64,000 bases of DNA from Acidithrix ferrooxidans (lineage in GTDB: Bacteria > Actinomycetota > Acidimicrobiia > Acidimicrobiales > Acidimicrobiaceae): positions 124,001 through 188,000 of the forward strand of contig NZ_JXYS01000001.1 of NCBI RefSeq assembly GCF_000949295.1. The letters are read 5' to 3'. Each line of letters starts with the position of its first letter. Within the stretch, counting starts at the first letter, position 1. The translations under genes and the position numbers were made by a program. Under the pieces are notes generated by a model, which did no database searches, had not been told where the DNA came from, and saw only the letters and a list, made by a program, of their open reading frames with translations. This document shows positions 4,479 through 50,159 of the stretch, in pieces.

Positions 4479-4499
4479 TTTTTGTAGCTTTGGATGGAT

Positions 4500-8795: not shown

Positions 8796-8837
8796 ATCTA
8801 TGAGGGCGAATTATTATTCTAAATCGCCCTCATAGAT
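8796..8837. repeat. Inverted repeat, 14-bp perfect arms
   Basis: ATCTATGAGGGCGA at 8796-8809 pairs perfectly with TCGCCCTCATAGAT at 8824-8837 across a 14-nt AT-rich loop. It could form a stable hairpin on either strand downstream of ileS. Confidence 0.75.
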
Positions 8838-8969
8838 AGTTGTACTGGTAGCTGTAAGCAATAGCTATCTGTAATTAATGCCTTTACCACGGCAATTGAA
8901 TATGGTCGACAATCATGGTTCTTTGTAAGCAGTTAATTTGCTACAACTCCTGGTCAGGTTTTTCCTGGG

Positions 8970-11900
8970 CTAGGCCTTTTCTACCTCAATTGTCCAGTTT
9001 TCGCTGGATGTACTTGCTTCATCCATAGAGAGCGAGTCTGCTAAGGTTTGAGTAAGGATGTAGTCGATCCACTTTCTTAGTGCTCCAATTAAGTTAGCAT
9101 CTTCCCTTACGGATACCGTAATATTAATGCGGTCTGTTATGTTTAGATCAGCTTCTTTTCGAAGATTTTGAACCTGGCGAACGAAGTCTCGGGCTACACC
9201 TTCAGCGATCAATTCTTCTCCGGGCTCAATGTCAAGTACCACTACCCCGGTCTGTTCAAAGAGGGGCCGAGACGCCTCTTTTGAGATCACATCCACTGTG
9301 AGTTGGAATTCGCCTTCTAGAAGCTCATAGCCACCAGCTGTGACCATTCCCTCCGGTGTTTTTATCCAGTTGTTTGTTTTTGCCGCGTCAATTACCGTTT
9401 GAGTTGCTCCACCAAGGCGAGGTCCTAGCTTGCGGGGTACTATCGCAAGGGTCTCTTTAGCTAGGACGGACGTATCTTCGAGGAGTATCACCTCTTTTAC
9501 GTTGGTCTCTGAGGCGATTAGGTCGATAAATGGTGTCAGACTAAGGGCGCCTTTAGTGGCTATCGTCAGGCTGGCTAGAGGGAGGCGGGCCCTGAGCCCT
9601 CGTGCTTTTCTAATCGAGTGGGCCTGCGAACAGGCTTCACGCACTAGATCCATCTGCGAAACTAGGTCGTTATCTAAGGGTAGTCCTTGTGTTGTGGGCC
9701 AGTCAACTAGGTGAACACTTCTCTCATCTGTGAGACCTTTATAGACATATTCCGAGACCATAGGAAGCATTGGCGCCACTATTTTGCATAGGTAGACCAA
9801 GGCGGTGTGGAGGGTATTGTATGCATCTAACTTATCTTGGTCGTCGGTGACCTTTTTAGGAGTCTCGCGCCAGAACCGATCTCTTGAGCGACGGATATAC
9901 CAGTTCGTAAGAGCCTCTAGGTAGTCTTCTATCCCAGTTGCAGCACCGTATAGGTCGTATTCATCGAGAGCATTGGTAGTGGACTCAATCAATGCCGACG
10001 TCTTTGCGAGGATATATCTATCGATTAGATTCGTGGACGAGGAATCTAGGGTACCTTTGATTCCATCTGCGTTGCCATAGAGGCTTAGGAAGTAATAAGC
10101 GTTCCAGATTGGGTTTATGACTCGCTTTAGAGCGTCAACTATCGATTCGCGATCGACAATAGCGTCTTGTCCCCTTAGAACCGGTGACGACAGAAGGAAC
10201 CAACGCATGGCATCGGCGCCAATTTCTTCGAAGACTTCCCATGGGTCGGGGTAGTTGCCCAATCTCTTTGAGAGCTTTCGTCCATCTTGTCCCAATAGGA
10301 TGCCGTGGGCCATACAGTTTTTAAATGGCGGTCGATCAAAAAGGGCAACGCCAAGGACATGGAGGGTGTAGAACCAGCCCCTAGTTTGGCCAATGTATTC
10401 CACAATAAAGTCAGCAGGGAAGTGTTCTTCGAAGTTTTCGCGATTTTCAAAGGGATAGTGCAATTGCGCATATGGCATTGACCCAGATTCAAACCAACAA
10501 TCTAGAACGTCAGTAACTCGGACCATTTTGGATTGTCCGCTGGGATCGTCTGGGTTTGGTCGCGTAAGCTCATCTATATAGGGCCTATGAAGATCCTTGG
10601 GCCTAACTCCAAAGTCTGCCTCAAGTTCATCCAATGAGCCATAGACGTCGACACGGGGGTATTGGGGGTTGTCGCTCTTCCAGATTGGAATCGGAGCACC
10701 CCAGAATCGATTTCGCGTGAGCGTCCAGTCTCGCGATCCTTCGAGCCACTTCCCGAACGATCCATCTTTTATGTGGCTTGGCGTCCAGTTGATCATTTGA
10801 TTTTTGGCGAGCAGGCGATCTTTGATAGCTGAAACGCTTACGAACCATGAGCTTTCAGCCTTGTATATAAGTGGGGTATCGGTACGCCAGCAGTGCGGGT
10901 AGGAGTGTTCATAGTTCAAAAGGGAGATCAAGAATTGGTGTTCGGTTAGGTATTTTACGATCTCTGGGTTTGCTTCAAAGACCTGAAGTCCTACATAGTC
11001 CACGACCGGATCTATGAATCGAGCTCTTGAGTCGACTGGGCAGACGACTTCGATTCCGTAACTCTCACACAACTTCTGGTCATCCTCGCCAAAGCCAGGA
11101 GCCATTTGGACTGCGCCAGTACCTTCTTCTGTGGCTACAAAGTCTCCGACCATTACTAAGAATGCATTGGGAGCATCGCTAAAGTAGTCAAAGATCGGCT
11201 TGAATCTGCGCCCTTCGACTTCACGGCCCAGAACTTCACCTAGGTAGGTTGCTCCTTCAAGCTCTTGGGCATAGTTTGAAGCGCAAGCGGCTGCCAGAAG
11301 GACCTTACGACCCCTTAGGGGGTGGTCAAAGACGCTGTAGGAGATCTCAGAGCCCAGTGCTATTCCAAGATTGGACGGCAGGGTCCAGGGCGTCGTCGTC
11401 CACGCCCAAATCTCGATCTCTCCACCAAGAAGGGGATTGGTCTCATTTGCATCCTCTATGAGGCGAAAACCAACAGTAACCGAAGGATCGACTCTGGGTC
11501 GATAGGAGTCGTCCTGTCGAGTTTCAAAGTTGGATAGAGGGGTTTCACACTCCCAGCAGTAAGGCAGAACTCTTCTGCCTTCATATATCAGTCCTTGGCG
11601 ATGAAGTTTTGCGAATGCCCAAATCACCGATTCCATAAAGTCGATATCCATCGTCTTGTAGTCGTTTACGAAATCGACCCATCGTGCTTGCCTACTGACG
11701 TATCGATGCCACTCGTCAGTAGTGCGCTGAACTAGACCTCGACAATGGTCATTGAACTTGTCTATTCCAAAGTTGATGACTTCATTTCGTCCGGTGACTC
11801 CCAGCTCTTTTTCTGTCGCCATCTCTGCGGGCAGACCGTGGCAGTCCCATCCGAAGCGCCTCTCGACTCGAAACCCTTTCATCGTCTGATATCGTGGGAC

Positions 11901-12143
11901 AGCATCTTTTACGAATCCGGTCAATAGATGGCCGTAATGTGGGAGGCCATTGGCGAATGGGGGGCCGTCATAAAAGACGAACTCTTTGTCACCTTGGCGA
12001 CGATTTTCTATCGACGCTTTAAATGTGTCGTCTATCTTCCAGAAGTCGAGAATCGATTCTTCAATTTGTGGAAGACGTAATCCAGGGGTCAACTTTGGAT
12101 ATTGCGTTTTATCGTTGTTCTCGTTTGGGTGATTAAAGGCCAT
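8970..12143 (-). CDS. ileS: Isoleucyl-tRNA synthetase
   Basis: 1057 residues, the length of the long (eukaryote/archaea-like, IleS2) type. It charges tRNA-Ile with isoleucine in the cytoplasm. The class I signature HYGH is at residues 69-72 (PPFANGLPHYGHLLTG), followed by FGWDCHGLPAE. The editing domain is inserted from roughly residue 200 to 400 (WAWTTTPWTLPSNLG; TGAVQMAPGFGEDD). The KMSKS loop appears as KLSKRLGNYPDP near residue 622. An anticodon-binding domain follows. IleS2-type enzymes are often less sensitive to mupirocin. I looked for a T-box leader upstream on the minus strand and did not see the conserved antiterminator. Confidence 0.97.
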   Translation of the reverse strand: MAFNHPNENNDKTQYPKLTPGLRLPQIEESILDFWKIDDTFKASIENRRQGDKEFVFYDGPPFANGLPHYGHLLTGFVKDAVPRYQTMKGFRVERRFGWDCHGLPAEMATEKELGVTGRNEVINFGIDKFNDHCRGLVQRTTDEWHRYVSRQARWVDFVNDYKTMDIDFMESVIWAFAKLHRQGLIYEGRRVLPYCWECETPLSNFETRQDDSYRPRVDPSVTVGFRLIEDANETNPLLGGEIEIWAWTTTPWTLPSNLGIALGSEISYSVFDHPLRGRKVLLAAACASNYAQELEGATYLGEVLGREVEGRRFKPIFDYFSDAPNAFLVMVGDFVATEEGTGAVQMAPGFGEDDQKLCESYGIEVVCPVDSRARFIDPVVDYVGLQVFEANPEIVKYLTEHQFLISLLNYEHSYPHCWRTDTPLIYKAESSWFVSVSAIKDRLLAKNQMINWTPSHIKDGSFGKWLEGSRDWTLTRNRFWGAPIPIWKSDNPQYPRVDVYGSLDELEADFGVRPKDLHRPYIDELTRPNPDDPSGQSKMVRVTDVLDCWFESGSMPYAQLHYPFENRENFEEHFPADFIVEYIGQTRGWFYTLHVLGVALFDRPPFKNCMAHGILLGQDGRKLSKRLGNYPDPWEVFEEIGADAMRWFLLSSPVLRGQDAIVDRESIVDALKRVINPIWNAYYFLSLYGNADGIKGTLDSSSTNLIDRYILAKTSALIESTTNALDEYDLYGAATGIEDYLEALTNWYIRRSRDRFWRETPKKVTDDQDKLDAYNTLHTALVYLCKIVAPMLPMVSEYVYKGLTDERSVHLVDWPTTQGLPLDNDLVSQMDLVREACSQAHSIRKARGLRARLPLASLTIATKGALSLTPFIDLIASETNVKEVILLEDTSVLAKETLAIVPRKLGPRLGGATQTVIDAAKTNNWIKTPEGMVTAGGYELLEGEFQLTVDVISKEASRPLFEQTGVVVLDIEPGEELIAEGVARDFVRQVQNLRKEADLNITDRINITVSVREDANLIGALRKWIDYILTQTLADSLSMDEASTSSENWTIEVEKA

Positions 12144-12538
12144 TTAACCAAATTAGGCGGTTTTAGTGGCAATCGAATCCGTCTAGAGCAATGCGATTGG
12201 GATACAAGCTGGCGGTGAGCTACAGGGCCTAGGTAATTCTCGGATAGTGTATAATCTTCGAAAACATTAGAGCACTAGAAAAGTGATAAGGTATTTTGTC
12301 TTCGTAATGGTTTGAAGGTGGATGGTTAACTCCAGCATCCCGAGGCTAATTCGCATGATTTCTTTGTTTTGCCATCGTCGATTTAGCAGCCAATTGGAAG
12401 TTTGCAGATATTGTGTCAGTCGATTATGAGTCGATCTCGAAAAATTGACTCAATCTGTATACGGGCATAAGTTTGAAAGGCTCGTCGTTTGATCTCTAAC
12501 GGCGAATGTGATCTTAGGTTTACAAGATTTGAAGGTTG
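12144..12538. other. Divergent intergenic region, ileS and dksA-like gene
   Basis: About 395 bases between two divergently read genes, so it should contain both promoters. AT-rich. I cannot assign -35/-10 boxes with confidence and see no riboswitch or tRNA. Confidence 0.5.
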
Positions 12539-13105
12539 ATGACAGAAAAAAAGAATGTTGCTAAGGTAGTTTCACCAATGAATAAACGACCCGCAGGTAT
12601 AAAAAGTAACGCCATATCGGCCGATTCAATAATGGACGACCGAGGAGATGTCAAAGGCAATCAGGAGGCTGTGATGGCAACATTGACCAAAGAAGAGATC
12701 GATGCTCTTAGCGACGACGAGTATGATTCTTTGAGCCACGAAGATTTCATGGCAGCTCAAGTAATTCTCCTTGAGGCAGAGAAGTCGGTCTATCTCACAC
12801 AGGCTGAGATGTTCAAAGAAGAGGCTGCAACCTTAGCAAGAGAGTCCGAGCCCGGCGACGTTCAATTCGATGAAGAGTCTGGTGAAGGTGGCAATTCGAC
12901 TATGGAGCGCGAGCGCGATCTAGCATTGCTTGCCTCGCATATGGCAACGGTCTCTGAGATTGACGAGGCGATTGAAAAGATTGCTAAGGCCGCCTATGGT
13001 AAGTGTGCGAACTGCCATAGTGAGATTCCGAGAATTCGTCTAAGGGCTCTGCCGTATGCGCGACTTTGTGTTCACTGCAAGAGTGGATCGATAATAAGGC
13101 GTTGA
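12539..13105 (+). CDS. DksA/TraR-type C4 zinc-finger protein
   Basis: 188 residues from the ATG at 12539 (an adjacent in-frame TTG at 12536 is less likely). The C-terminus carries the DksA/TraR zinc finger: YGKCANCHSEIPRIRLRALP with Cys156/159, then LCVHCKSG with Cys177/180. The preceding helix ERDLALLASHMATVSEIDEA corresponds to the coiled-coil arm, which is short. The N-terminal 90 residues, acidic and low-complexity, have no recognisable domain. Proteins of this type often sit near lspA and ileS in actinobacteria. DksA binds RNA polymerase in the stringent response, but this shorter class may act differently. Confidence 0.85.
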   Translation: MTEKKNVAKVVSPMNKRPAGIKSNAISADSIMDDRGDVKGNQEAVMATLTKEEIDALSDDEYDSLSHEDFMAAQVILLEAEKSVYLTQAEMFKEEAATLARESEPGDVQFDEESGEGGNSTMERERDLALLASHMATVSEIDEAIEKIAKAAYGKCANCHSEIPRIRLRALPYARLCVHCKSGSIIRR

Positions 13106-13115
13106 TCCTAGCTAT

Positions 13116-13145
13116 CATCTTTTGGTAGGTGCCTACCTAAAGATG
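13116..13145. terminator. Probable terminator after the dksA-like gene
   Basis: A 14-bp hairpin (13116-13129 with 13132-13145, one mismatch) with a 2-nt loop begins 10 bp after the stop. The T-rich run downstream is weak, so it may instead separate or modulate read-through into lspA. Confidence 0.5.
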
Positions 13146-13215
13146 AAGAGGCGGGTTTTATCTTCCTGCCTTGTAGACTCAGATAGACCCTTTGACTTTT
13201 TGTAAAGGAAGATTA

Positions 13216-13692
13216 TTGACGGCTCGACTTTTGAGGCTCCGATTTCTTGGATTGCTTGTCGCGGGAATCTGGATAGTTCTAGATCAGATATCAAAGACCT
13301 GGGCTCAGAGTAATTTAATGGGTCATCCTCGTTTCTTATTTGGACATGTTGGCTTCGAGTTGATCTATAACTCTGGGTTTGCTTTTGGCATCGCCTCGGG
13401 CTCTTCGGCAATCATCACTATCTTTGGCCTTATCGTATCAGCAGGCTTAATCTTCGCCCTATGGCGTACTTCACGTAGGACGATTGCCCTAGGAATTGGC
13501 CTCGTCTTGGGGGGTGCCTTGGGCAATGTGGTGGATCGCCTCTTTCGTCACAATGGGGGCGCGGTAATTGACTTTATCCATTCAGGATTTTGGCAGACAT
13601 TCAACCTGGCTGATATGGGTGTAGTGGTGGGACTGATTGTTATTATGGTTGGTTCTCGTCAGCGACAGGTATCATCGTCATCAAATCGTTAA
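13216..13692 (+). CDS. lspA: Lipoprotein signal peptidase (signal peptidase II)
   Basis: 158 residues from the TTG at 13216, chosen because AAGGAAG (13205-13211) lies at ideal spacing; the frame stays open to a TTG at 13192. This membrane aspartyl protease removes signal peptides from diacylglyceryl-modified prolipoproteins. Four membrane segments are visible. The catalytic pair is D119 in GAVIDFIHSG and D133 in FNLADMGV. VLDQISKTWA, YNSGFAFG and GGALGNVVDRL are the other family blocks. It is followed 86 bp later by the rluD-type gene, the standard pair. Confidence 0.96.
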   Translation: MTARLLRLRFLGLLVAGIWIVLDQISKTWAQSNLMGHPRFLFGHVGFELIYNSGFAFGIASGSSAIITIFGLIVSAGLIFALWRTSRRTIALGIGLVLGGALGNVVDRLFRHNGGAVIDFIHSGFWQTFNLADMGVVVGLIVIMVGSRQRQVSSSSNR

Positions 13693-13778
13693 GGTCGCTA
13701 GGCTTATAGGTACTGTTTCTGCTTCAACTTTTTTGTTCGAAGTAGAAAGAAGTTCGGACTAGAAGACTGCAGGTAAAT

Positions 13779-14771
13779 TTGAGCAATGTGATCCGAATCG
13801 ATGAACCTAGTGACGACGACACCTTGGTATCTTATGATGTGCCGGAGTCGTGTGTAGGACTGAGGCTTGATCGGGCGTTGTCGACCCTTACGGGTTGCTC
13901 AAGGGCGCTCGCGGGTTCAACTATTGACAACGGTCAAGTTGGAATCGACGGCAAGTTGGCAACGTCTCGCTCTACAAAGCTTTCTAGCGCCAACGTAATT
14001 ACCTTTCCAGCCACATTACTAGAGGGCGTCGAGGATATCCCTATTGAGGCTGATGGGAGCGTTGACTTCGATGTGATCTATGCAGATGAGGACATCATAG
14101 TTATCGATAAGCCTGCTAACTTAGTTGTCCATCCTGGAGTTGGAAATCCCTCAGGGACTCTCGCCTCTGGATTGTTATTTAGATATCCAGAGATTGTTGG
14201 TATAGGTTCTCCTTTGCGGCCAGGAATTGTGCATCGCCTTGATCGTCCCACAACAGGGTTGATGGTGGTGGCTCGTTCGGCTTTAGCCTATGACCTGCTC
14301 GTTGGTCAACTCAGCAACCACAGCGTTGAACGCCGTTATCTGGCCCTGGTACACGGAGTAATACTACCTCCGAGTGCACTTTTGGAAGGGCCAATTGGAA
14401 AGTCAACTCGTGGTTTCGGAATCATGTCTGTTAGTGCCCAAGGTAAGTGGGCACGGACTCACTATAGCCGTTTGGCCATCCTAAGCCTAGGTGATGAGAT
14501 CTACTCTTTGGTGGACTGTTCGCTGGAGACTGGGCGGACCCATCAGATTCGGGTTCACCTATCTTCTCATGGATTTCCGATCGTGGGGGATGTGGTCTAT
14601 GGATCAAAGTACGACTTTGGCCCTCGAGTCTTTTTACACGCCTACGAACTGAGTTTTTTGCATCCTCGAACTAATGAGGAAGTTCGATTTAGTGCTCCAG
14701 CACCTCTCGATTTGCAGGAACTGATCAGTCAAATGACCATTGTCGAAGGGACAATCGACTATTTCAATTGA
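13779..14771 (+). CDS. rluD: RluD-type rRNA pseudouridine synthase
   Basis: 330 residues. An S4 RNA-binding domain (about residues 27-85, LRLDRALSTLTGCSRALAG) precedes the RsuA/RluA catalytic domain. Catalytic Asp is D155 in GIVHRLDRPTTGLMVVA. IDKPANLVVHPG, ERRYLALVHG and LETGRTHQIRVH are further family motifs. It isomerises specific uridines in 23S rRNA. The TTG start at 13779 has GCAGG upstream; a GTG at 13788 is an alternative. The target positions cannot be told from sequence alone. Confidence 0.93.
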   Translation: MSNVIRIDEPSDDDTLVSYDVPESCVGLRLDRALSTLTGCSRALAGSTIDNGQVGIDGKLATSRSTKLSSANVITFPATLLEGVEDIPIEADGSVDFDVIYADEDIIVIDKPANLVVHPGVGNPSGTLASGLLFRYPEIVGIGSPLRPGIVHRLDRPTTGLMVVARSALAYDLLVGQLSNHSVERRYLALVHGVILPPSALLEGPIGKSTRGFGIMSVSAQGKWARTHYSRLAILSLGDEIYSLVDCSLETGRTHQIRVHLSSHGFPIVGDVVYGSKYDFGPRVFLHAYELSFLHPRTNEEVRFSAPAPLDLQELISQMTIVEGTIDYFN

Positions 14772-15177
14772 GGGATCTTCCTCAATGGCACTCCTTAGTG
14801 GTTAAGGTGAGCGTGTTCTATTTACTCCCAGAGCACTTCTAGATCGACCTAAGGATCTACCATGGAGCTTTGCCCGGTTGGTTTTGCTAGTTAGGCTTTG
14901 GCCCAGTAGCTCTATGTCTAATAACCATACAACTATTAGCGATGCAGCTAGTAACGATCTTTCTAAGAGTCGAGCGCGCCTTTTTTGGAAACGCTAGACC
15001 AAAATGGCTCCAACTCTGGAGCGTTCGAAGGCCTCACTGGTTGAAGATGGGTGTGTGGTCGACTCTGGATTTTCATTAGAGATTGAGTTATGGGCGAATC
15101 GAGATGAGATTTGTCATTTCTAAAAACTATCCAGGGGGATCTTCCTAAAAGATTGAACTAGGCCAGGATGGATTGAA
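14772..15177. other. Intergenic stretch between rluD-type gene and metX 3' ends
   Basis: About 400 bases between convergent genes. A short perfect hairpin overlaps the rluD-type stop codon (ATTGAGG/CCTCAAT, about 14766-14785) without a clear T tract. The 16-bp direct repeat at 15151 reaches into the metX end. No gene seen. Confidence 0.5.
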
Positions 15178-15186
15178 CTAGGCCAG
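15151..15186. repeat. 16-bp direct repeat spanning the metX stop codon
   Basis: GATTGAACTAGGCCAG occurs at 15151-15166 and again at 15171-15186 (period 20). The second copy includes the metX stop codon and its last codons, so the duplication copied the gene end into the intergenic DNA. Confidence 0.9.
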
Positions 15187-16338
15187 CGCCTTGTTTATGA
15201 AAGTGGCGACTGCGCTCTCTTCAATCAGAAAACCATCGTGTCCATAGGATGATTCGATACCGACAAATGATTCGGTTGCCCTTATGGAGCTGGCAATCTC
15301 TTTTTGTTGATAGAGGGGATAGAGGCGATCCGATTCGATGCCAGCCACGAAAGTCCGGGCTTTGATTTGACCCAATGCTCGGTCTACACCCCCACGATCA
15401 CGTCCAAGATCGTGGCTGTTCATAGCTCGTGACAGGGCTATATAGGTATTTGGGTCGAAGCGTCGATTGAGCTTCTCACCGTGGTAATGGAGGTAGCTTT
15501 CAACCTCAAATGCACGTGGGTCTAGAGGTTCCTTGCCTTTTACCAATGTGCGACCAAACCGATCGCCAAATTCTAAATCGCTTCGATAACTCAACATCGC
15601 CAATTTTCTAGCGATCATCATCCCTGCGGTTGGTCCTTGGCCGTCACCCACGCTGTAATAGTCGCCGCCATGAAAGTTAGAGTCTAATTCGATAGCTTCG
15701 ATTTGGATTGAGCAAAGGGCAATCTGCTCGGCGGATGCCGATGCGGTTGTAGCTAGTACTATCAATCTTTCAGTTGAATCGGGCTCTAAGACGGCGTGTT
15801 CAAGTGCCCTCATCCCTCCCATGGAGCCCCCGATGACCGCCTGCCATCTCTCAATTCCAAGGTAACGTGAGAGTTCTATTTCGAGCCTTGCTTGGTCACG
15901 AATTGTAATTTTGGGAAAGCGTGAGCCAAAGGGCAACATGGAGGAAGAATCGATTGAGGATGGGCCAGTAGTTCCTTGGCATCCGCCAAGAACATTTGGG
16001 CAGACCACGTAGTAGCGGTTGGTATCAATAGCCATGCCTGGTCCTATCTGGCCATCCCACCAACCCGGTGTAGGGTGACCTGGACCCGCATTTCCTACGG
16101 CATGAGAGTCACCAGTTAAGGCATGTAAAACAAGAATCGCATTTGACTTGTCAGCCTTTAGCTCTCCCCATGTCTCATAGGCGACAATAGTACCCCTGAG
16201 CTCCCCTCCGTATTCGAGGTGGAGGGGAGTGTCAGAAAATAGGGTGGCGAACCGCTTGTGACCGGGATCAGATTCAGGTAAATGAATTTGCCTGCTTATG
16301 AGACCGTGCAGCTCGGTCGGTTCGCCATGGTCAGCCAC
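15178..16338 (-). CDS. metX: Homoserine O-acetyltransferase
   Basis: 386 residues, alpha/beta-hydrolase fold. It transfers an acyl group from acyl-CoA to homoserine in the methionine pathway. Key blocks: AYETWGEL, LVLHALTGDSHA, PGWWDGQIGPG, and the nucleophile elbow IGGSMGGMRALE with Ser172. The acid is near residue 340 (ESDRLYPL) and the His is in SSYGHDGFLIE near 370. The start codon lies 2 bp after the metY stop, so the two are one operon that performs successive steps. Acetyl versus succinyl specificity cannot be fixed by homology alone, hence the conventional name. Confidence 0.94.
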   Translation of the reverse strand: MADHGEPTELHGLISRQIHLPESDPGHKRFATLFSDTPLHLEYGGELRGTIVAYETWGELKADKSNAILVLHALTGDSHAVGNAGPGHPTPGWWDGQIGPGMAIDTNRYYVVCPNVLGGCQGTTGPSSIDSSSMLPFGSRFPKITIRDQARLEIELSRYLGIERWQAVIGGSMGGMRALEHAVLEPDSTERLIVLATTASASAEQIALCSIQIEAIELDSNFHGGDYYSVGDGQGPTAGMMIARKLAMLSYRSDLEFGDRFGRTLVKGKEPLDPRAFEVESYLHYHGEKLNRRFDPNTYIALSRAMNSHDLGRDRGGVDRALGQIKARTFVAGIESDRLYPLYQQKEIASSIRATESFVGIESSYGHDGFLIEESAVATFINKALA

Positions 16339-16340
16339 TT

Positions 16341-17630
16341 CTACTTTGCAGCCCGGAATCCGGCTTCAAGGTCGGCGATGATATCGTCAATACTCTCTAG
16401 TCCGACTGAGATACGAATCAGATCCTCACTTACGCCCGAGGCCAGTTGTTCCTGGGGAGTTAGTTGCGAATGTGTTGTCGATGCCGGATGTATAACGAGT
16501 GAACGCACATCTCCTACGTTAGCAAGGTTTGTGTGAAGTTCAAGCGAGTCTACGAATGTCTTTCCGGCTTTTAGGCCGCCTTCTATCCCAAAGCTTAGGA
16601 CTGCTCCTGCCCCACGAGGTAGAAGTTGGCTTGCTCGTGCGTTCCACTTTGAGGACTTTAGGCCTGGATAGTTGACCCAGCCTACCTCTGATCGCGACTC
16701 TAGGAACTCTGCAACTGCCTGTGCATTTTGAACATGTCGTTCCATTCGCAGCGAAAGGGTCTCAAGGCCTTGGATGATTAGAAATGCATTGAATGGAGAG
16801 ATAGCTGCCCCGAGGTCTCGAAGGCCTTGGAGGCGAGCTTTAGCTGCATAGGCGCCTGGACCTAGTGCCTCCCAGAATTTGAGGCCATGATAGGATGGGT
16901 CTGGCTCGGAAAATCCAGGGTGACGTGGGCTCTCACCGAAGTTGAATGTTCCGCCATCGACGATGACGCCAGCGACAGAGGTGCCGTGGCCGCCAATGAA
17001 TTTAGTTGCCGAGTGAACTACGATGTCGGCTCCATGCTCTAGTGGACGGGCTAGGTATGGTGAGGCAAGTGTGTTGTCGACGATCAGTGGCAAAGAATTC
17101 CGATGTGCTACGCCGGCTATTCCAGGGACGTCAAGGACATCACCGCGTGGGTTGCCGATCATTTCGCCATAGAGTGCTTTGGTGTTTGGCTGAATTAGAG
17201 CTTCCCACTCCTTGAGATCGTCAGGATTGGATACAAAGCTTACCGAGATGCCTAGCTTTTCGAAGGTGTAACGAAACAGGGAGTAGGTGCCACCATATAG
17301 TGACGATGAGGCTACTATGTGGTCGTTAGCACCGGCCAAGTTCAAGATAGCCAAGGTTTCAGCTGCTTGTCCCGAAGAGGTTGCTAATGCGGCTACGCCA
17401 CCTTCGAGGCTGGCTATGCGCTCCTCCATAACTGCCTGCGTTGGGTTCATGATTCGCGTGTAGATATTGCCGACTTCTGTCAGTCCAAAGAGCGCAGCGG
17501 CGTGATCGGAGTCTCTAAATTCATAAGACGTGGTCTGATAGATCGGAACGGCACGTGCTCCTGTTGTTGGATCTGACGTTGCTCCAGCATGAATTTGGCG
17601 GGTTTCAAAGCCCTTGTAATTTGAGGTCAT
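16341..17630 (-). CDS. metY: O-acetylhomoserine sulfhydrylase (PLP-dependent)
   Basis: 429 residues, Cys/Met metabolism PLP-enzyme family. It makes homocysteine from O-acetylhomoserine and sulfide. PLP lysine K210 is in VVHSATKFIGGHGTS; YTRIMNPTQAVMEERIASLE, ATSSGQAAET and the Asp of LIVDNTLASPYL are also visible. The length and the long FNFGESPRHPGFSEPDPSYH insert mark the MetY subgroup instead of cystathionine synthases. First gene of metY-metX. Immediately upstream is a perfect 14-bp palindrome that could be an operator; I saw no SAM riboswitch. Confidence 0.94.
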   Translation of the reverse strand: MTSNYKGFETRQIHAGATSDPTTGARAVPIYQTTSYEFRDSDHAAALFGLTEVGNIYTRIMNPTQAVMEERIASLEGGVAALATSSGQAAETLAILNLAGANDHIVASSSLYGGTYSLFRYTFEKLGISVSFVSNPDDLKEWEALIQPNTKALYGEMIGNPRGDVLDVPGIAGVAHRNSLPLIVDNTLASPYLARPLEHGADIVVHSATKFIGGHGTSVAGVIVDGGTFNFGESPRHPGFSEPDPSYHGLKFWEALGPGAYAAKARLQGLRDLGAAISPFNAFLIIQGLETLSLRMERHVQNAQAVAEFLESRSEVGWVNYPGLKSSKWNARASQLLPRGAGAVLSFGIEGGLKAGKTFVDSLELHTNLANVGDVRSLVIHPASTTHSQLTPQEQLASGVSEDLIRISVGLESIDDIIADLEAGFRAAK

Positions 17631-17635
17631 GACTT

Positions 17636-17649
17636 ACAATATATATTGT
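17636..17649. promoter_or_regulatory. Perfect 14-bp palindrome in the metY leader
   Basis: ACAATATATATTGT, self-complementary, lies 5 bp upstream of the metY ATG. Its position would let a bound repressor block transcription or translation initiation of metYX. It may also be chance in AT-rich DNA. Confidence 0.4.
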
Positions 17650-18990
17650 TGACCATATTAGTCGGCTTTTTGTGACTTGTAAAGTAGATTCTAGAGGGTT
17701 CCAGTTGCTACTTAAGTTTATTGCATTGACCAAGGGGACTCGTAGAGGTCTAGATATTGGTCTCTTCCCACCCTTGCCATAGGGGAGAATGGCATTTAAG
17801 TCGCTCGTTTTTTTTGGGCCCTTGGATGACTTTTCTGTTATCTTTGAACGTTGATTCCATAATTTTTGGACTACCTCGCCGAAATATTCGGACCAACTGA
17901 TTTTTCGTCTGATTAACTTTCTTTGGTGTCTTAAAAAATGCGGATACCAAAGGAAGTGCGGGCATTTCGCCTTGCTTTTCTAATATGCACCTGGCTACCT
18001 GGCTACCTCTACTGCTTTCGCCATTTCTACTATATTTCAGTCTTTTTTTCAGCCGATTCTAGGGTATCATGTGAATGTAACGGTTTTAGTCGATTCATAT
18101 ATGGTCTAACCGAGAGTTATCAATTAAAAAAGTTAGCTGACTCAGATCTATAATGAGTAAAAATGACGCTCCTAACACTAATGTGGGTCAGCAAGACCCT
18201 AAAACCGATCTGTTGTTCCTGTGATAACAACTTTTGGGTGTTTGCAAGAATTGAATGAAACGTGCAGAACTTCTTGAACCCTAAATTTGAAGTTATGAAC
18301 ACGGATTTCTAGGATTGTAACACAGTATGCCAACTTTCTAGTCAAGAAGTTGTATAACACTGAAGGTGTCAGAAGTAAACGATACTGTTATCTTTTGCGT
18401 TAAAAGTATCGCCATTAGCCGGTGAGGGCCAGATTCTTGCTTTACGGGAGACCATCGTGATCAGCTGTCCTTCTCAAGTGCCAAGATGGATAAAGCAACA
18501 TTTACGATGCTCGGCCAGATTGCCCTGAAAACTTCTCGGGCGGTCATTGGGAAAACCCCAACGAACTTGCGAAGGTTTAGTTTTATATCCAAAACCAACC
18601 AAAGCTTCAATGATTTCCATGGATTCTTTGTTATCTTTTATTTGGGGCCCAGCCTCGGCATTAGGACCGTGTGTAAATCCATAATGGCGCGAGATAATGG
18701 CTTTCATTCTTCTTTTTTCTCAAGAAGTGATAGCCAGAGGGATTTTGCGTGCCCACTCTAGGGTCCAGGGGAACCGAGAGTGGGCCGTCACGCTAGGCGG
18801 TCATCCGATATGTATTTTTCGTGTTCATATTCATCCATTCCAAATGGCCGTTGACAGTTGGTTTTTTTGATATATATATATATATATATATATCCGTGGC
18901 TGAGATTCAGTGGAGGATGGCAAATGCACTAACCGGTCATCTGCGACCCTTTGATGCGTCTTTCAACTCTTTATAGTCTTATGTCTGAGG
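17650..18990. other. Gene-free stretch upstream of metY
   Basis: About 1.3 kb. Several frames of 60-90 codons exist on both strands but none shows a recognisable domain. It holds a perfect 9-bp inverted repeat GCCCACTCT/AGAGTGGGC (18751-18785), an (AT)12 run at 18870-18893 and a short period-8 duplication near 17990. The metYX promoter must be near 17650-17750. Confidence 0.5.
18870..18893. repeat. (AT)12 dinucleotide microsatellite
   Basis: An uninterrupted AT run of about 24 bases. Such runs are slippage-prone and rare in bacterial DNA. No adjacent start codon that would suggest a phase-variable promoter. Confidence 0.95.
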
Positions 18991-40008: not shown

Positions 40009-40189
40009 TCGATTTTTTATAATTTGGCATTCATAAAATCTTCTTGGTCAAATTTAAATTTTGTTGGCCTTGGAGTCGCAGATAGTTTTTCGTCGGGCTT
40101 TGCTTGATCTGCGTTCGCACCCTGTTCGATTTTATCAAATTTGAAATTAGAGATCGGATTAAGCGTTGCATAATGTGTAGCGCTGCCAG

Positions 40190-40262
40190 TGCGATTACTA
40201 GAAACAGTGTGATTACTAGAAACAGTGTGATTACTAGAAACAGTGTGATTACTAGAAACAGG
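40190..40262. repeat. 18-bp tandem repeat, four copies
   Basis: GTGATTACTAGAAACAGT repeated four times with only end variants. A period divisible by three keeps frames open through it, which creates spurious ORFs. Confidence 0.93.
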
Positions 40263-40294
40263 GTGATTTCTGGTGGCAATGAGGGTTGTTGCAA

Positions 40295-40346
40295 CATTTG
40301 GATTTTTGCTTGTGAATCACCGACCCACAAGCAAAAAAGCCAAATG
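40295..40346. terminator. Long imperfect hairpin, probable bidirectional terminator
   Basis: Inner arms TTTTTGCTTGTG/CACAAGCAAAAA pair perfectly and outer arms CATTTGG/CCAAATG extend the stem across a small bulge, with A and T runs on both sides. It is 290 bp past the hydrolase stop and upstream of the amidase gene. Confidence 0.65.
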
Positions 40347-40443
40347 TTTGGCAGGTCTATGGCAAAGTGACATGGAAGAGCAGGCTATTTTGGCGGGCCG
40401 AGTTTTCCTAATGAGGCTTGTAGGGATCGATTCTGTGTAAGGA

Positions 40444-43908: not shown

Positions 43909-45402
43909 TTACCAACCACCAATGCGGTTGTATACGTCCTCGCCGTAGCTTGTAGAAAGTGGTTCGCCCGGTGTTAGCTTAAAGTTTCGCCCCGCCGTAC
44001 CTTGCCGTCCTGCTTGAAGAAATAAGGCTGAACTCGCATCGTTTTGGTAAAACCTCAAAGCCAATTCACTTAGGTGGGTAACGACGATCGTTCGCACGTC
44101 GGAATCGATCAACGCCCTAATTACTTGATAGGCAATTTCGGATCCCTCTCGCTCATTCGTAGCTGAAAACGACTCATTGAGGAGAACTATGCACTTTGGC
44201 GTGATTGCGTCGACCACTTCGCTCATTCGGGCCAATTCCTCGTCTAGTTTTCCACTTGTCATGGACGAGTCTTCTTCTCTAACGAAATGTGTAAAGAGGC
44301 CTTCGCAAACGCTTGCAGTAAATGACTTGGCTGGAACAAACATTCCAGAGCGCATCATTACCAAAGCAACTCCAACGCTACGCAAGAAAGTCGATTTACC
44401 ACCGGAATTCGCTCCAGTGATAACAACTAGGGAGTTGTCGTCGGCGTTAGCATCATTACCGATGACAGACGTTTGGCTGCGCAATGAAAGACAGACATCG
44501 TAGAGCCCTATGAAATTTAGGAGTGGCGGACTCCAAGGTTTGGCGACGGCATTACATGTTGGTTCATTCTTAGCCGATAATATCTCCTTCAAGTTGAGGG
44601 CGGCCACGAAGAATGCCAGCTCAGTACGGAGCATGGCAAAGAAATTGGTAAGGTGGTCAGCCGCTTGCGTCAAGGAGTTTGCGGCTGAGTTCATACCCTT
44701 GCTCATGATAACATTCAGTGCATTCATACCAGCTTCATCGCGCGAGTTGATGTCAAAAGAGTAGGATTTTCTACCTCCAACTCCGAGGCGCTCCTTCAGG
44801 GATTGTTTGGTATTGCGCGAATCACGCAATACGTAATCCATGCCTGTGTTCCCAAAGGTTAGTTTCGCACTGATTAGGGTACCATCTCGAAATTTTAGTT
44901 GGTTGAGGTTATCGTCAACTACAGAAAAATAGTCGTCACTGAGCTCTTCTTTTAGTACTCTAAAGAGGGTAGTCCAGCCTTCAGAGCTAAAGGTTTCTCC
45001 GTGCTCGTCGACAATTTTGCGTAGCTGTTTTAGGTAACCCATAAACATGCCAATTACTTGAGGGGACTGCGCCATCATTCCAGTTGGACTGTCCTGGCGC
45101 GTAAACCAGAACATCTTGTGCTTGTCAAAAAGAGCTTTAACTGCAATTTCATAGATTTGACGTACAATCTCAGAATGAGACGAGCAGTCATCTAAGACCG
45201 ACTGGCGATAGGCAATCTCTGTGGGATTAGTCAATCCATTCAAAAGCGCGACTCGTGAAACTTTGAGTAAGAACTCATCACCTCCAGCCATAGCTCCCAA
45301 AAGGGTGTCAAGGTCGAGGTCGTGTACGAGGTAGTGCTCATTAGGGGGTAGCGGTTGGAGAAGATTGAAATCCTTATCGCGGAACATCAAATGTGCCTTC
45401 AT
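43909..45402 (-). CDS. MutS-like ATPase, second of an adjacent pair
   Basis: 497 residues. The C-terminal third is a MutS-type ABC ATPase: Walker A VITGANSGGKSTFLRSVGVA near residues 325-336, EEDSSMTSGKLDEELARMSE as the signature region, Walker B IVLLNESFSATNEREG, and VVTHLSEL as the H loop. The N-terminal two thirds are helical, like MutS core and lever regions, but the mismatch-recognition domain (F-x-E) is missing, and so are Smr and HNH nuclease domains. Its start overlaps the stop of the preceding MutS-like gene by 4 bp. Walker B has Asn-Glu (LLNES) where MutS has Asp-Glu. Likely partner of the upstream paralogue. Confidence 0.85.
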   Translation of the reverse strand: MKAHLMFRDKDFNLLQPLPPNEHYLVHDLDLDTLLGAMAGGDEFLLKVSRVALLNGLTNPTEIAYRQSVLDDCSSHSEIVRQIYEIAVKALFDKHKMFWFTRQDSPTGMMAQSPQVIGMFMGYLKQLRKIVDEHGETFSSEGWTTLFRVLKEELSDDYFSVVDDNLNQLKFRDGTLISAKLTFGNTGMDYVLRDSRNTKQSLKERLGVGGRKSYSFDINSRDEAGMNALNVIMSKGMNSAANSLTQAADHLTNFFAMLRTELAFFVAALNLKEILSAKNEPTCNAVAKPWSPPLLNFIGLYDVCLSLRSQTSVIGNDANADDNSLVVITGANSGGKSTFLRSVGVALVMMRSGMFVPAKSFTASVCEGLFTHFVREEDSSMTSGKLDEELARMSEVVDAITPKCIVLLNESFSATNEREGSEIAYQVIRALIDSDVRTIVVTHLSELALRFYQNDASSALFLQAGRQGTAGRNFKLTPGEPLSTSYGEDVYNRIGGW

Positions 45403-46997
45403 GACTTGAGTCGCCCCCTAATGTCATCGTAGGTTAGTTGGTGCTTCTGTGCAATTGCTAAGGCGTATGCAAGGCCATCTGCTGGCTGTCGAACTATTTT
45501 GAAAGTGCGATCGGCAGGATTCGTGGGATTGACAGTGCTTGTCATACTTACGACCCAAGGGCCTATTCGACTCAATTCGTCGATAAAGGTAACCACTACG
45601 CACAGCGCATCGAGGTTTTGGATCTTATCAATTACTTTCAGACCTAAACCAAGAGCATCCAAAGCAGTGGTTGAAGCGAAGATCTCGTTCATAATAATGA
45701 TGCTGTTTGAGGTAGCTTGATTCAAAACGGCACGAATCCGAATTAGGTCTTCCTCTAATTTTCCACTTTGGTAGGTAGGGTCCTCCTCTTTACCAAAGTG
45801 AGTATATAGCTGATCATAGAGGTATAGTTGGGCTTGTTGGCCGGGAACCAGACATCCGATGCTGGCTAAGTAGTGGATCTGCCCAAAAGTCCTAGCAAAA
45901 GTGGTCTTTCCTCCTTGATTTGGACCTGAGACTACAATAATTCTCTCAATACCCTCGAGATGTAAATCATTGCGCACAACCACCATTCTCTGAAGTTCCA
46001 ATTTATGAGCCAGGGCGAGGTCGAAGGTCTCAACCGCTGAAATCTCTTTCGAAGTTTCTAGGATCTCCGGGATGCAAAATGAAAGGCCTTGTGCTTTTAG
46101 TGGTGCAATAAAGTCGAGATAGGAGAGATAGAACTGAATCTCACGTTCAAAAAGAGTGACCGTTTGATTTAGGAAATCGCTCTCTTGTTCGCAGAATGAC
46201 TCAATGGATGAGAAAAGATCACTAAAGAGAAGCGCCACGCGGTCGACGATCATCGCCTCCACGTGATTCATATTGGGCCAGTCTGAAATAGATCGGCGGT
46301 AGTCTTTGACGGTACTTTGCTGAAATCTCTCGAAGGTCTTTATGATCTCAGCGCCGTAATCTTCTTCACCCTCGTACTTGACAACTCGAACATGAAGTCC
46401 TTTGAGATTGATGCAATAGCGAACTTGGGAGAGTTGATCTTTCAGCAAACTCGTAGCGCTAGCGAGCTGCTCAAAAGGACTCGATGAAGCATAAGCGTTT
46501 AGAGATTCTCGAAAACCCATCAAAGCGGCAGAGTTGATCTCGGTCTCCTTTAGCACCCTAACAAGACTCGCTACAGCGTTGCAGTAGCGATGGGCAGCAT
46601 CTAAGTGAAGGGCGCGACGATGCTGCACGAAGGACGACTTGGCGGACCAAGCTAGCCTTTGGCGGACCTCGAGCATCTGACTTTCGAACGTTCTGATACT
46701 GCTGGTAAGAGCCTGGTTCTCAAGGTCGCGCCACACCTCGTACCGAAAACGAATTTCATCTGCGTCATGAAGGTGATCATAAAAAAAGGGTAGAAGTTGA
46801 TAGTCGTTTCGGTCCTTATTTATTGACGAAAAGACCTGATCAAGTAAGAGGTCATGAAAACAGTTCGGCTCAGATTCACCACCGTCAGCCATAGCCTCTT
46901 TGGGCTTCGAATAAAGGATGCTGCAGGTTTGTCTTGCCATGGCAGATGAGGGATCTATGTTATCAACTGGAGCATCCAGTCGGCCGAAGGTCGTCAT
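45399..46997 (-). CDS. MutS-like ATPase, first of an adjacent pair
   Basis: 532 residues from the ATG at 46997 (a GTG at 47006 is in frame). The ATG overlaps the TGA of the 50-residue gene upstream (ATGA), so this start is preferred. Helical N-terminal core with DELxxRYEVWRDLE-like segments, then a MutS-type ATPase: Walker A VVSGPNQGGKTTFARTFGQI near 352-363, signature EEDPTYQSGKLEEDLIRIRA, Walker B SIIIMNEIFASTTALDALGL, H loop VVTFIDEL in which Phe replaces the usual His. No mismatch-binding or nuclease domain. Only about a quarter alike to its neighbour by eye, so an old duplication or two distinct subunits. Confidence 0.85.
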   Translation of the reverse strand: MTTFGRLDAPVDNIDPSSAMARQTCSILYSKPKEAMADGGESEPNCFHDLLLDQVFSSINKDRNDYQLLPFFYDHLHDADEIRFRYEVWRDLENQALTSSIRTFESQMLEVRQRLAWSAKSSFVQHRRALHLDAAHRYCNAVASLVRVLKETEINSAALMGFRESLNAYASSSPFEQLASATSLLKDQLSQVRYCINLKGLHVRVVKYEGEEDYGAEIIKTFERFQQSTVKDYRRSISDWPNMNHVEAMIVDRVALLFSDLFSSIESFCEQESDFLNQTVTLFEREIQFYLSYLDFIAPLKAQGLSFCIPEILETSKEISAVETFDLALAHKLELQRMVVVRNDLHLEGIERIIVVSGPNQGGKTTFARTFGQIHYLASIGCLVPGQQAQLYLYDQLYTHFGKEEDPTYQSGKLEEDLIRIRAVLNQATSNSIIIMNEIFASTTALDALGLGLKVIDKIQNLDALCVVVTFIDELSRIGPWVVSMTSTVNPTNPADRTFKIVRQPADGLAYALAIAQKHQLTYDDIRGRLKS

Positions 46998-47146
46998 TTC
47001 CCGCACCTACAGATTTTTGGATCCACCTTAGAAGGCGCTACGGTAGCTCCAAAACACGAATCGAGGCCATCGATTAGAAGAGATGTAGTTTCTAAAATTT
47101 CCCGTCGCGAACGCGAGTAACTCTTGGTTCTAATCTCAGCTTTCAT
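46994..47146 (-). CDS. 50-residue basic protein, first gene of the MutS-like operon
   Basis: Starts at an ATG (47146) with a perfect AAGGAG at 6-nt spacing (47153-47158), reads MKAEIRTKSYSRSRREILET and continues to a C-terminal KICRCGK, and ends with a TGA that overlaps the ATG of the MutS-like gene. A longer frame up to 47230 lacks a ribosome binding site. Many basic residues, three Cys (one internal, CRC at the end). Not recognised. The excellent ribosome binding site and ATGA coupling argue that it is a real, translated gene that feeds translation of the two ATPases. Confidence 0.6.
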   Translation of the reverse strand: MKAEIRTKSYSRSRREILETTSLLIDGLDSCFGATVAPSKVDPKICRCGK

Positions 47147-48039
47147 TGTCTTCTCCTTAAAGCCGTCAATTGACAGGTAGAAGCCATTAGCCATGAAAGC
47201 AGTTCGGACTACGGTCCGCCGGAGCATCATCCGACATCTATAATGATAGCCGATCCCCCTCGAATCTGCAATGATGCCAAGATAGGGGTAGGTCCCAAAT
47301 CAACCGACGGGCATAGGGTCGCCTTGGCCGAAACGAATATATTTGCCAATGCGATTCAATTTCACCTTCGATAAAGCCGGATACTTGCCGCTAGCTTACT
47401 ACCTGGTAGCAGCAACATTCTTATATAAATCTTTATGAACTATGGTGACAAGTTGTTCAAGTCGTCAAATGACACGACAGATAAAATTCATTCAGGTGAT
47501 CAGTAAGATGAAGTTCATTCGAGCCATTTGGACAATTGGCAAACTTGCAATCGCAAGGGTCATAAACAGCTTGTCTGGCCCCCCCAATAAATTTTATGTG
47601 AGAGTAGCTTTTATGTGAGAGCAGCTTTATGTGAGAGCAAGAGGTCTGCTCCCATCCGTTCGACCCAGTGGATACGACCTAACACGCCTCGCGATGGTAC
47701 CTTGTATTTTTTATCCTTGAAGCGCGGATCGTCTCACCTGTTTTTAGTATCGATTGCCAAAGAGATACGCCAGAATCGTTTTTATGGAAAAACCAACCTG
47801 TTCAAAGAGTCATTTACATCTCCTGCATCTCGATGGGAAGGCTTGATTGCATGCATCGGTTTAAAGTCTATAAATCACGCCGAATTATGGAAAATAGATC
47901 GATATGTAGTTCAGAGATTGCTGAATCCGAAAGGCAATTCGACAAAGCTATACCATTTGCTCGAGATAGTTAACACCCACAAATTGGAGAGACTCGCCAA
48001 AACATGTTAGCTTGACACAAAAGCCTAAAGGAGATCCAG
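47147..48039. other. Region between the MutS-like operon and enolase
   Basis: About 890 bases between divergent genes. A 131-codon plus-strand frame (47615-48010, GTG start) has no recognisable domain, no ribosome binding site and begins inside the 17-bp repeat; I leave it as a doubtful hypothetical. Both the operon promoter and the eno promoter must be here. Confidence 0.45.
47592..47640. repeat. 17-bp tandem repeat, three copies
   Basis: TTTTATGTGAGAGTAGC, then TTTTATGTGAGAGCAGC, then a slightly shorter TTTATGTGAGAGCAA copy. Confidence 0.9.
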
Positions 48040-49302
48040 ATGGTAAAAACGGTATCCAAAGTCTCAGCAGTCCAAATACTTGATTCTCGTAGCCGACCAA
48101 CTTTGGCGACAACTGTCACCTTGAGCGATGGAACCTCAGCACGTGCAGGAGTTCCTTCGGGGGCTTCGACTGGTTCGCGCGAGGCTGTCGAAGCCCGCGA
48201 TGGAGATTTAAGTCGATTCAATGGAGGCGGTGTACTTGATGCCGTAGCACATGTGAACGGCGAGATCAACGCTGCATTGGCAGCTAGAGCGTTCGCCAAC
48301 CTCGCCGAAGTTGACCAAGCGCTGATTGACCTGGATGCAACAACGAATAAGTCACGATTGGGAGCCAACGCGATTGTCGGAGTCTCCATCGCTGCCGCCC
48401 GGGCATTCGCTAACTCCGAAGGGCTGGCACTTTGGGAATATCTACAACCGGCCGGAGTCAACGCAAGACTTCCAGTGCCGCACTTCAATGTCGTAAATGG
48501 AGGCGTGCATGCACCCAACAACCTCGACTTTCAGGAATTCATGATAGCGCCGATTGGCGCACCATCAATCGCCGAGGCGGTTAGAGCAGGATCAGAGATA
48601 TATACCAAACTTAAGCAATTGCTTGCTAGCAAGGGGTTCGCAACAGGCCTAGGCGACGAAGGCGGCTTTGCCCCGCAGATCGACCGCCCAGAAGACGTTC
48701 TTGCGCTTTTAGTCCAGGCTATCAACGAAGCAGGGTACCGACCCGGTCGCGATGGAGTAGCTATCGCTCTCGATCCGGCATCCAGTGAATTTTACCGTGA
48801 TGGATTCTATAAAATTGCCGGCGAGTCGCTCTCGAGTACCGAGATGATCGATCGGTACGAGGAGATTATTTCGACCTATCCGGTATGGCTTCTAGAGGAT
48901 GGACTTGCCGAATCCGATTGGAGCGGATGGGAACAACTTACAGCTCGACTAGGCGATCGCGTCGAGCTCGTCGGTGACGACCTCTTGTGTACGAACCCTG
49001 CGATCATCAAAGAGGCTATTGCCCGCCATGCTTGCAACGCTAGCCTGATCAAGGTAAATCAAATCGGTACCGTAAGCGAGACGCTTGAGGCTATGCGTAT
49101 CTGCCGCGACGCTGGGTGGGCGCAGTTTGTCTCACATCGCTCAGGAGAAACCGAGGATACTTTCATCGCTGATTTGGCCGTCGCGACTGGTTGCGGTCAT
49201 CTAAAGAGTGGGGCACCTGCTCGTGGTGAACGAGTGGCTAAATACAACCGTTTGATTGAGATAGAGACTGTAAGCACTCTGGGGTACGGATTGACTACCT
49301 AG
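48040..49302 (+). CDS. eno: Enolase (2-phosphoglycerate dehydratase)
   Basis: 420 residues. AAAGGAG lies 7 bp before the ATG. It converts 2-phosphoglycerate to phosphoenolpyruvate in glycolysis. Conserved blocks: ARAGVPSGASTGSREAVEAR, VPHFNVVNGGVHAPNNLDFQ, GLGDEGGFAPQI (catalytic Glu), WLLEDGLAESDW, VGDDLLCTN, SLIKVNQIGTVSETLEA (catalytic Lys) and SHRSGETEDTFIADLAV. Odd points: the N-terminal signature reads LDSRSRPTLATTV instead of the near-universal DSRGNPTVEVEV, and the ALDPASSEFY region replaces ALDVAASEFY. It stands alone instead of in the usual eno-divIC-ppx neighbourhood. It may be a diverged or second copy. Confidence 0.93.
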   Translation: MVKTVSKVSAVQILDSRSRPTLATTVTLSDGTSARAGVPSGASTGSREAVEARDGDLSRFNGGGVLDAVAHVNGEINAALAARAFANLAEVDQALIDLDATTNKSRLGANAIVGVSIAAARAFANSEGLALWEYLQPAGVNARLPVPHFNVVNGGVHAPNNLDFQEFMIAPIGAPSIAEAVRAGSEIYTKLKQLLASKGFATGLGDEGGFAPQIDRPEDVLALLVQAINEAGYRPGRDGVAIALDPASSEFYRDGFYKIAGESLSSTEMIDRYEEIISTYPVWLLEDGLAESDWSGWEQLTARLGDRVELVGDDLLCTNPAIIKEAIARHACNASLIKVNQIGTVSETLEAMRICRDAGWAQFVSHRSGETEDTFIADLAVATGCGHLKSGAPARGERVAKYNRLIEIETVSTLGYGLTT

Positions 49303-50159
49303 GAGAGAGAAACAGTCATCTCGTTACAAATGAGATTGATTGATTTGCCTTGCCTAACTGCCTTGCCTAACTGCCCGGAGCATTGCTAGGAAAGCAATTT
49401 TGCAATGGGCAGAACATTTTGCTTATGGTCACTTACAATGACCTTCGACCACTGGGATCTCTAGCTAATATCAAGATAGCTAATAGCGCCTAGCTGTGCT
49501 AGCTCAGCTTGAGAGGGCTCTGCTGTTAGGAAATATCGGTATTGCCTTTGCTCAAAGCTTCTAATTGACCTTGACCTTGACCTTGACCTTGTAATTGTAA
49601 TTGCTATTGGTCTTGTAATTGCAATTGCAATTGCCATTGGTCTTGACCGTGCCATTGTCGCTGCCAATGCCACGGAGTGTATGAATCCGAAAAGTCAAGG
49701 AAGCCGGTCACGGATAAAGACGACAGGCTTTATTGGCTTTACCAAGTTGCTCATAGTCTAAGTAGGTCATTTGCGCGACATGACAAGGGTGACAGGTGGG
49801 ATCTCCCTATTCCATGAGGTAAGATTTCGCCCAAGAGCTATATCTTCGCTGACTGCTAGGGCCTTATTTACCTTGGCGCCAATGTGGAGGGTTGAGATTT
49901 GCCTATTTATTTGCAGCTAGGTGAGCGGCGGTTGAGCTGTTGTTGAAGTTGAGTCGAATTTGTATCGATCTCTCACATGGGTTTTGTTCTTGATATTCTG
50001 CATTGCTTAAACCAAGTACGACCAAGATGATTGGTGGTCCAGCTTAGGAACTATGCGAGCGCCTATTGCCATTGCAAGGTGAACCTGGGTTGAGGCTAGG
50101 TTTGTTATGAGAAGAAATGGTTCGACAGATAACTCAAAGGCAAGAATTAAGGGTGGCAA
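49303..50159. other. Gene-free stretch after enolase, low-complexity
   Basis: About 860 bases. A 13-bp tandem duplication lies at 49347-49375 (GCCTTGCCTAACT twice). Around 49564-49650 the sequence is low-complexity with (TTGACC)n and ATTGCAATTG/TTGGTCTTG repeats; the 70-codon minus-strand frame over it (Ala/Ile/Arg/Ser only) is an artefact. No gene seen. Confidence 0.6.
49564..49650. repeat. Low-complexity repeat block
   Basis: Four TTGACC units followed by interleaved TAATTG, GCAATTG and CCATTGGTCTTG units. Period 6 dominates. Probably built by slippage. Confidence 0.85.

Follow-up and report, generated by a model that had tools for sequence, protein, structure and literature searches.

Which process employs two adjacent MutS-like ATPases that carry neither mismatch-recognition nor nuclease domains? 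This question is raised by an operon of Acidithrix ferrooxidans, located on the minus strand of a 64,000-nucleotide stretch of contig NZ_JXYS01000001.1 (hereafter the window, in whose numbering positions are given unless a locus is named). The operon is preceded by a fluoride-riboswitch-like aptamer, which is followed on the minus strand by a 50-codon open reading frame (ORF), ATPase A and ATPase B. Pairs of A and B recur in Actinomycetota, Spirochaetota and Verrucomicrobiota, many of them behind such an aptamer. Because the riboswitch and the neighbouring genes point to fluoride stress rather than to mismatch repair, the operon is likely to encode a heterodimeric fluoride-stress ATPase, whatever its target. 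Its features are as follows.

47171-47241, minus strand: fluoride-riboswitch-like aptamer (RF01734), Rfam match of 22.0 bits, E=0.002, covering model positions 1-64
47153-47158, minus strand: AAGGAG, read from the sequence as the ribosome-binding site of the leader ORF, putatively switch-controlled
46994-47146, minus strand: 50-codon putative leader ORF, start codon six bases after AAGGAG, stop overlapping the start of ATPase A
45399-46997, minus strand: MutS-like ATPase A, 532 residues, no mismatch or Smr domain, Asn in Walker B, Phe in place of the switch His
43909-45402, minus strand: MutS-like ATPase B, 497 residues, Walker-B Asn, switch His retained

A first-pass annotation had described three overlapping ORFs opened by an AAGGAG, which is confirmed as sequence, coordinates included; the riboswitch-like aptamer directly upstream had been overlooked. 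The 50-codon ORF ends in a TGA (46996-46994) that shares bases with the ATG of ATPase A, which begins at 46997; A in turn overlaps the start of B (45402) by 4 bp. The latter overlap is identical in 34 of 42 loci, with offsets of -19 to +9 in the other eight. This count derives from 44 rows, from which L024 (spurious, B being off the contig) and L008 (a repeat of L026) were removed and in which the near-copies L086, L077 and L078 were retained. B also directly follows A in all six loci found later by profile search. The adjacency of A and B exceeds chance.

ATPases A and B form a distinct group of the MutS family

As for their domains, MutS_V (PF00488) is the sole Pfam family above its gathering score in either protein (74.8 bits in A and 79.6 in B, cut-off 30.2), which places both in the MutS domain V superfamily. 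The Pfam scan gave no passing mismatch-recognition, connector or Smr domain in A or B. Both stay below the cut-offs for MutS1 (TIGR01070, 78.2 bits for A and 59.1 for B vs 641.7; NF003810, 85.1 and 70.4 vs 480) and for MutS2 (TIGR01069, 56.0 and 72.5 vs 400). In comparisons with MutS2, A matches at its ATPase end only and B over part of the lever and the ATPase, the solved MutS2 chains of entry 7qv3 matching B over residues 248-483. No other PF00488 protein was found in the A. ferrooxidans genome, which is 98% complete.

The ATPase motifs set A and B apart from MutS1 and MutS2. The Walker-B Asp is replaced by Asn in all 90 pair proteins (47/47 A and 43/43 B) and in three single-gene spirochaete homologues (3/3), whereas Asp is present in 32/32 MutS1 and MutS2 sequences. 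The S-T-F signature of the latter (S in 32/32, T in 31/32, F in 29/32) gives way to G-K/R-L: the first position is G in 43/47 A and 43/43 B, the second K or R in 45/47 A and all 43 B. A and B differ from each other at the switch His: Phe takes its place in all 47 A, whereas all 43 B, the three spirochaete proteins and all 32 MutS1 and MutS2 sequences retain His. These counts omit the near-copies L086, L077, L078 and L008 and the missing or cut B rows of L024 and L026; related genomes remain among them, and the rows are not independent.

A and B align with each other over 479 columns, revealing full-length homology. A tree of 64 rows resolves A, B, the spirochaete family, MutS1 and MutS2 as one clade each, with MutS1 and MutS2 grouping together apart from A and B (support 100/99). 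Together, domains, scores, motifs and tree rule out an ordinary MutS1 or MutS2; A and B are one MutS-family group separate from both. The earlier description of two distinct, adjacent MutS-like ATPases that lack mismatch and nuclease domains is borne out by Pfam, the locus survey and the tree, and the two are co-inherited. One of the outcomes named as fatal to the earlier reading, namely ordinary MutS2-type proteins with no co-occurrence, is contradicted by the separate clade and the recurring pairs.

The heterodimer proposed at the same time is plausible in view of the pairing, the parallel clades and the motif asymmetry, and we regard its formation, predicted from sequence, as likely. The difference at the switch His suggests that the dimer would be asymmetric. 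ABC-type ATPases, which can combine one degenerate with one working ATP site, provide an analogy that suggests such a division of labour for A and B as well, in which case the heterodimer would be obligate. AlphaFold models of the two proteins were poor (mean predicted local distance difference test score of 47.5 for A and 48.6 for B, from seven-sequence alignments).

A candidate fluoride riboswitch precedes the operon

When 46900-48200 was scanned with 4227 Rfam families at E<=10, RF01734 on the operon strand was the only match. In the targeted scan of this 1301-base stretch, it is a full-length structural match better than chance, and so is the orthologous leader of L085 (26.9 bits, E=0.0024), the closest relative, an Actinomycetota metagenome-assembled genome whose ATPase A is 72% identical to that of the window. 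The aptamer core is nearly invariant between the two, in contrast to the sequence that follows it. The aptamer lies between the operon and a divergently transcribed enolase gene; a riboswitch serving this enolase was rejected, there being no second Rfam match in the interval at the same threshold.

The minimum-energy fold computed without ligand pairs AAGGAG with the aptamer's 3' strand, which is what a translational ON switch requires. AAGGAG is probably a switch-controlled ribosome-binding site. Fluoride binding and fluoride-dependent control by this leader are predictions from the aptamer family, and on the whole we consider it very likely that expression of the operon is linked to fluoride.

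Elsewhere in the same genome, a 56.6-bit fluoride riboswitch (L148 2686-2746; G000:C110:6185-6245) sits 29 bases before a membrane gene read as HyfC-like, with more membrane genes after it. The HyfC label, like the FtsB-like, MazG-like and metal-type ABC labels used below, is a by-eye reading of translations. Formate hydrogenlyase is one of the classes of genes under fluoride switches that are named in PMC11139923.

The switch and the ATPase pair are associated across loci

We scored a switch as present when it lay on the same strand, no more than 1.2 kb upstream of A, and reached E<0.01 in the locus's own scan. By this measure, 37 of 55 assessable loci have a switch upstream of A: 23/26 among the relatives (window counted), 4/13 among distant Actinomycetota, 7/10 among L085, L086, L088-L090 and five Spirochaetota stretches, and 3/6 among held-out loci found afterwards by profile. 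Of the 51 switches detected in 60 relatives, 22 sit directly upstream of an A/B pair, for which the chance is about 0.00018 per locus, treating loci as independent and using rounded genome sizes.

The tally omits L018 and L079, which have no upstream sequence, and L087, which has 229 bp, and it counts near-copies separately (G035:C5/C68; L085/L086; G144/G176/G166). L086 was credited with a switch because its aptamer string is the same as that of L085, rather than on the basis of its own scan. Scored as misses were G144 and G176 (E=0.59), G050 (E=0.24), G111 (switch on the opposite strand only) and G010:C280, in which a switch lies about 4 kb upstream with CrcB in between.

The pair itself has a patchy distribution. 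ATPase A is matched in 23 of the 60 relatives and, at E<=1e-40, in 10 of 296 genomes of the class; B is matched over its full length in 15 of 396 genomes of Actinomycetota and in 5 of 198 of Spirochaetota.

Two loci have further particularities. In G111 (L074), ATPase A lies in two frames, as two tblastn pieces, and the opposite-strand switch is near a gene read by eye as a cation/proton antiporter. In the Spirochaetota locus L139 (4168-7528), switch and pair are inside an apparent metal-type ABC transporter operon, the binding protein being upstream of the pair and the ATPase and permease downstream.

Some pairs lie among genes for fluoride-sensitive enzymes and exporters

The richest setting is that of L085, where a fluoride island of about 16 kb (2756-18395) comprises iPGM, enolase, pyrophosphatase, CrcB, two DUF190 genes, two switches and the MutS-like pair. 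Its first part runs iPGM, a switch before a helix-turn-helix gene, DUF190, enolase, pyrophosphatase, a switch, A and B; after B come a histidine phosphatase, DUF190, CrcB, an MFS protein and a proton-antiporter-like (PF00361) subunit. In the window, the pair adjoins the following gene.

48040-49302, plus strand: second enolase, divergent from the operon, one of two genome matches

The L085 orthologue of this protein is an enolase by Pfam and 87.6% identical to it. The genome's other enolase, on contig C31, has a housekeeping-looking setting beside FtsB-like and MazG-like genes. One CrcB match was found in the genome, on another contig than the window.

Elsewhere, CrcB-like stretches precede A twice in L032 (G050) and once in L025 (G010), and L038 has CrcB at a greater distance upstream. 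L002 and L024 have pyrophosphatase-like ORFs ahead of A, and the Verrucomicrobiota locus L088 has an enolase after B. When only relatives of enolase, pyrophosphatase and CrcB are counted, at least one lies near the pair in 8 of 45 loci, the window and L085 included, over stretches that vary in length and are very short at some loci. The two pyrophosphatase-like ORFs lie between switch and A and are 37% (L002, about 441-851) and 26% (L024) identical to the L085 enzyme; the former has an active-site stretch that looks altered by eye and may be inactive.

Short tandem-repeat stretches also occur between genes of the window, at 40104-40370 and 49461-49673, where ORFs contain VITRNS repeats and KV runs.

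The 50-codon ORF is a putative translated leader

The first-pass annotation had suggested that the product of the 50-codon ORF could be a small accessory subunit. Scans with Pfam, NCBIfam and PADLOC gave no match for this product. An ORF at the same place in L085 retains the start codon, the good ribosome-binding site, the length of 50 codons and the stop/start overlap, and it is on these grounds that a functional, fast-evolving accessory protein might be argued for. However, only 10 of the 50 residues are identical between the two, at a distance at which ATPase A is far better conserved, and substitutions fall evenly over the three codon positions (26/29/25, vs 105/81/269 in the 530 codons compared for ATPase A). 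The amino acids are not under visible selection. Moreover, a tblastn search of 45 other loci turned up no homologue at E<=1. On the substitution pattern and the homology search we reject a conserved small subunit, and consider the fast-evolving protein highly improbable. We infer instead that the ORF is a translated leader that couples the switch to ATPase A.

A proposed role in fluoride stress

These elements can be assembled into a model. Going by the aptamer family, a rise in fluoride would act on the riboswitch in the 5' leader to raise expression of the operon. Judging from the overlaps, the short leader ORF would be translated first and pass ribosomes on to ATPase A, which would in turn be coupled to B. 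A and B, whose pairing, motifs and clades are described above, would assemble as an asymmetric heterodimer. Since they have no mismatch and nuclease domains, they are probably an ATP-driven clamp rather than a mismatch-repair machine, which might grip and remodel something jammed under fluoride stress. Induction, dimer and remodelling are all predictions from sequence; we conclude that the pair probably aids fluoride survival, not the mending of mismatches.

Several observations weigh against this model. No switch was found by our measure in 18 of the 55 loci, including 9 of the 13 distant Actinomycetota and the Verrucomicrobiota locus L088, and 37 of 45 loci show none of enolase, pyrophosphatase and CrcB near the pair. 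The window aptamer scores 22.0 bits against an Rfam gathering score of 34, and RF01734 is absent from an ordinary Rfam scan of the window because the aptamer scores below that curated value; nor is it listed in a stricter-filter scan of the relatives, in contrast to the other switch of the same genome. Finally, the fold of the leader is not significant (z of -0.8, with 40 of 200 shuffles equally good; z of -1.9 for the L085 leader).

Fluoride stress had not been considered by the first-pass annotation, which looked to recombination, DNA clearance or defence. While its heterodimeric machine is plausible, the small subunit is unsupported, as seen above, and so is defence: PADLOC gave no match for A and 15 weak P-loop matches (<=17.9 bits) for B, and an anti-phage system was rejected for want of a specific match.

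What the clamp would act on can be read in several ways. Kept on DNA, the heterodimer would use its core and lever helices, like MutS2, to bind branched or damaged molecules in fluoride-induced repair or recombination, and would protect the genome when fluoride disturbs DNA enzymes. This is rather doubtful. The MutS ancestry of the pair and the stretch over which B aligns with MutS2 argue for such a role, as does the label of DNA repair given to crcB-linked mutS in 2010 (list of genes in PMC2864571), but A and B have no mismatch or Smr domain, the fluoride neighbours found are metabolic enzymes and exporters, and no repair gene was recognised beside the pair among the named neighbours, which are not all the neighbours. 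Remodelling of something other than DNA, be it protein or ribosome, is a tentative but serious possibility. A reactivase would open metalloenzymes locked by Mg-fluoride-phosphate, much as the ATPase KamC is said to restore lysine 5,6-aminomutase. It would make sense of the presence of enolase or pyrophosphatase close to the pair in the window, L085, L088, L002 and L024, both enzymes being fluoride targets according to the consulted part of PMC11139923. KamC is moreover the best NCBIfam match of B (77.5 bits) and a weaker match of A (49.9 bits). Yet both scores are far below the cut-off of 300 bits, the match spans the ATPase part only (302-475 in A, 323-448 in B), these enzymes are not near the pair at most loci, and no paper was found on KamC as a reactivase, so that we hold this activity to be unlikely.

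A bolder version, in which a reactivase with one degenerate and one working ATP site has charge-swapped sites (Walker-B Asp to Asn, signature Thr to Lys/Arg) that tolerate the fluoride stalling ordinary Mg-ATPases, seems to us quite unlikely; if true, it would be a new kind of resistance, in which poisoned enzymes are mended instead of the poison being exported. Equally far from our expectation is that A/B, as a pared-down analogue of MutS2 without KOW and Smr, splits ribosomes stalled by fluoride-trapped translation GTPases. MutS2 does rescue collided ribosomes via an ATP-driven change, as described in the consulted part of PMC12292046, and its chains in 7qv3 are those that match B; against this, the KOW and Smr parts by which the same source has MutS2 recruited are absent from A and B, and no translation gene was recognised as conserved beside the pair.

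Comparison with known systems

Among MutS-family ATPases, MutS2 resembles A and B in having no domains I and II and in the profile match over lever and ATPase, and differs in its Smr domain, in a family cut-off that A and B fall far short of, in its separate clade, and in its Walker-B Asp and signature. KamC (NCBIfam NF052383, named lysine 5,6-aminomutase reactivase ATPase) is likewise a short MutS-like ATPase, with a named non-DNA role; compared by NCBIfam profile only, it resembles A and B in the ATPase part alone, and no protein above the family cut-off was found in the six genomes reached through our loci. The single-gene MutS-like proteins of about 570 residues in three Spirochaetota genomes (L124-L126) are homologous to B over their full length and share its Walker-B Asn; in contrast to the operon, they have no paired partner that we could see, and scans of the three stretches gave no fluoride riboswitch at E<=1. 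This family could show the ancestral role. Many prokaryotic MutS subfamilies without domains I and II are largely uncharacterised (the relevant passage of PMC12292046, citing Ogata 2011), and the A/B clade may already bear a subfamily name.

As for fluoride systems, in the fluoride-resistance operon of Enterobacter cloacae FRM (consulted part of PMC5533749) a fluoride riboswitch is accompanied by crcB, enolase, phosphoglycerate mutase and pyrophosphatase, which is comparable to the L085 island; that operon has UspA, and the words MutS and mismatch do not occur in the main text consulted. In 2010, Weinberg listed mutS, as DNA repair, among genes whose 5' untranslated region carries the crcB motif, and reviews repeat these as DNA repair proteins (passages of PMC7266159 and PMC9495176). 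That motif is RF01734, the aptamer family of this operon; the 2010 passages that concern mutS are silent on its pairing, on the loss of mismatch domains and on changes in the ATPase motifs, all three of which are observed here. Literature searches judged by title and the start of the abstract yielded no paper recognised as dealing with the pairing, motifs or function of A/B. The link between mutS and fluoride switches has been known since 2010, whereas the pairing and the changed ATPase motifs were not met in the literature searched. The linked mutS is an ATPase pair without mismatch domains and with changed ATPase sites, found sometimes among fluoride-sensitive enzymes, which makes an unexplained part of the fluoride response testable and might extend the functions of the MutS family beyond DNA.

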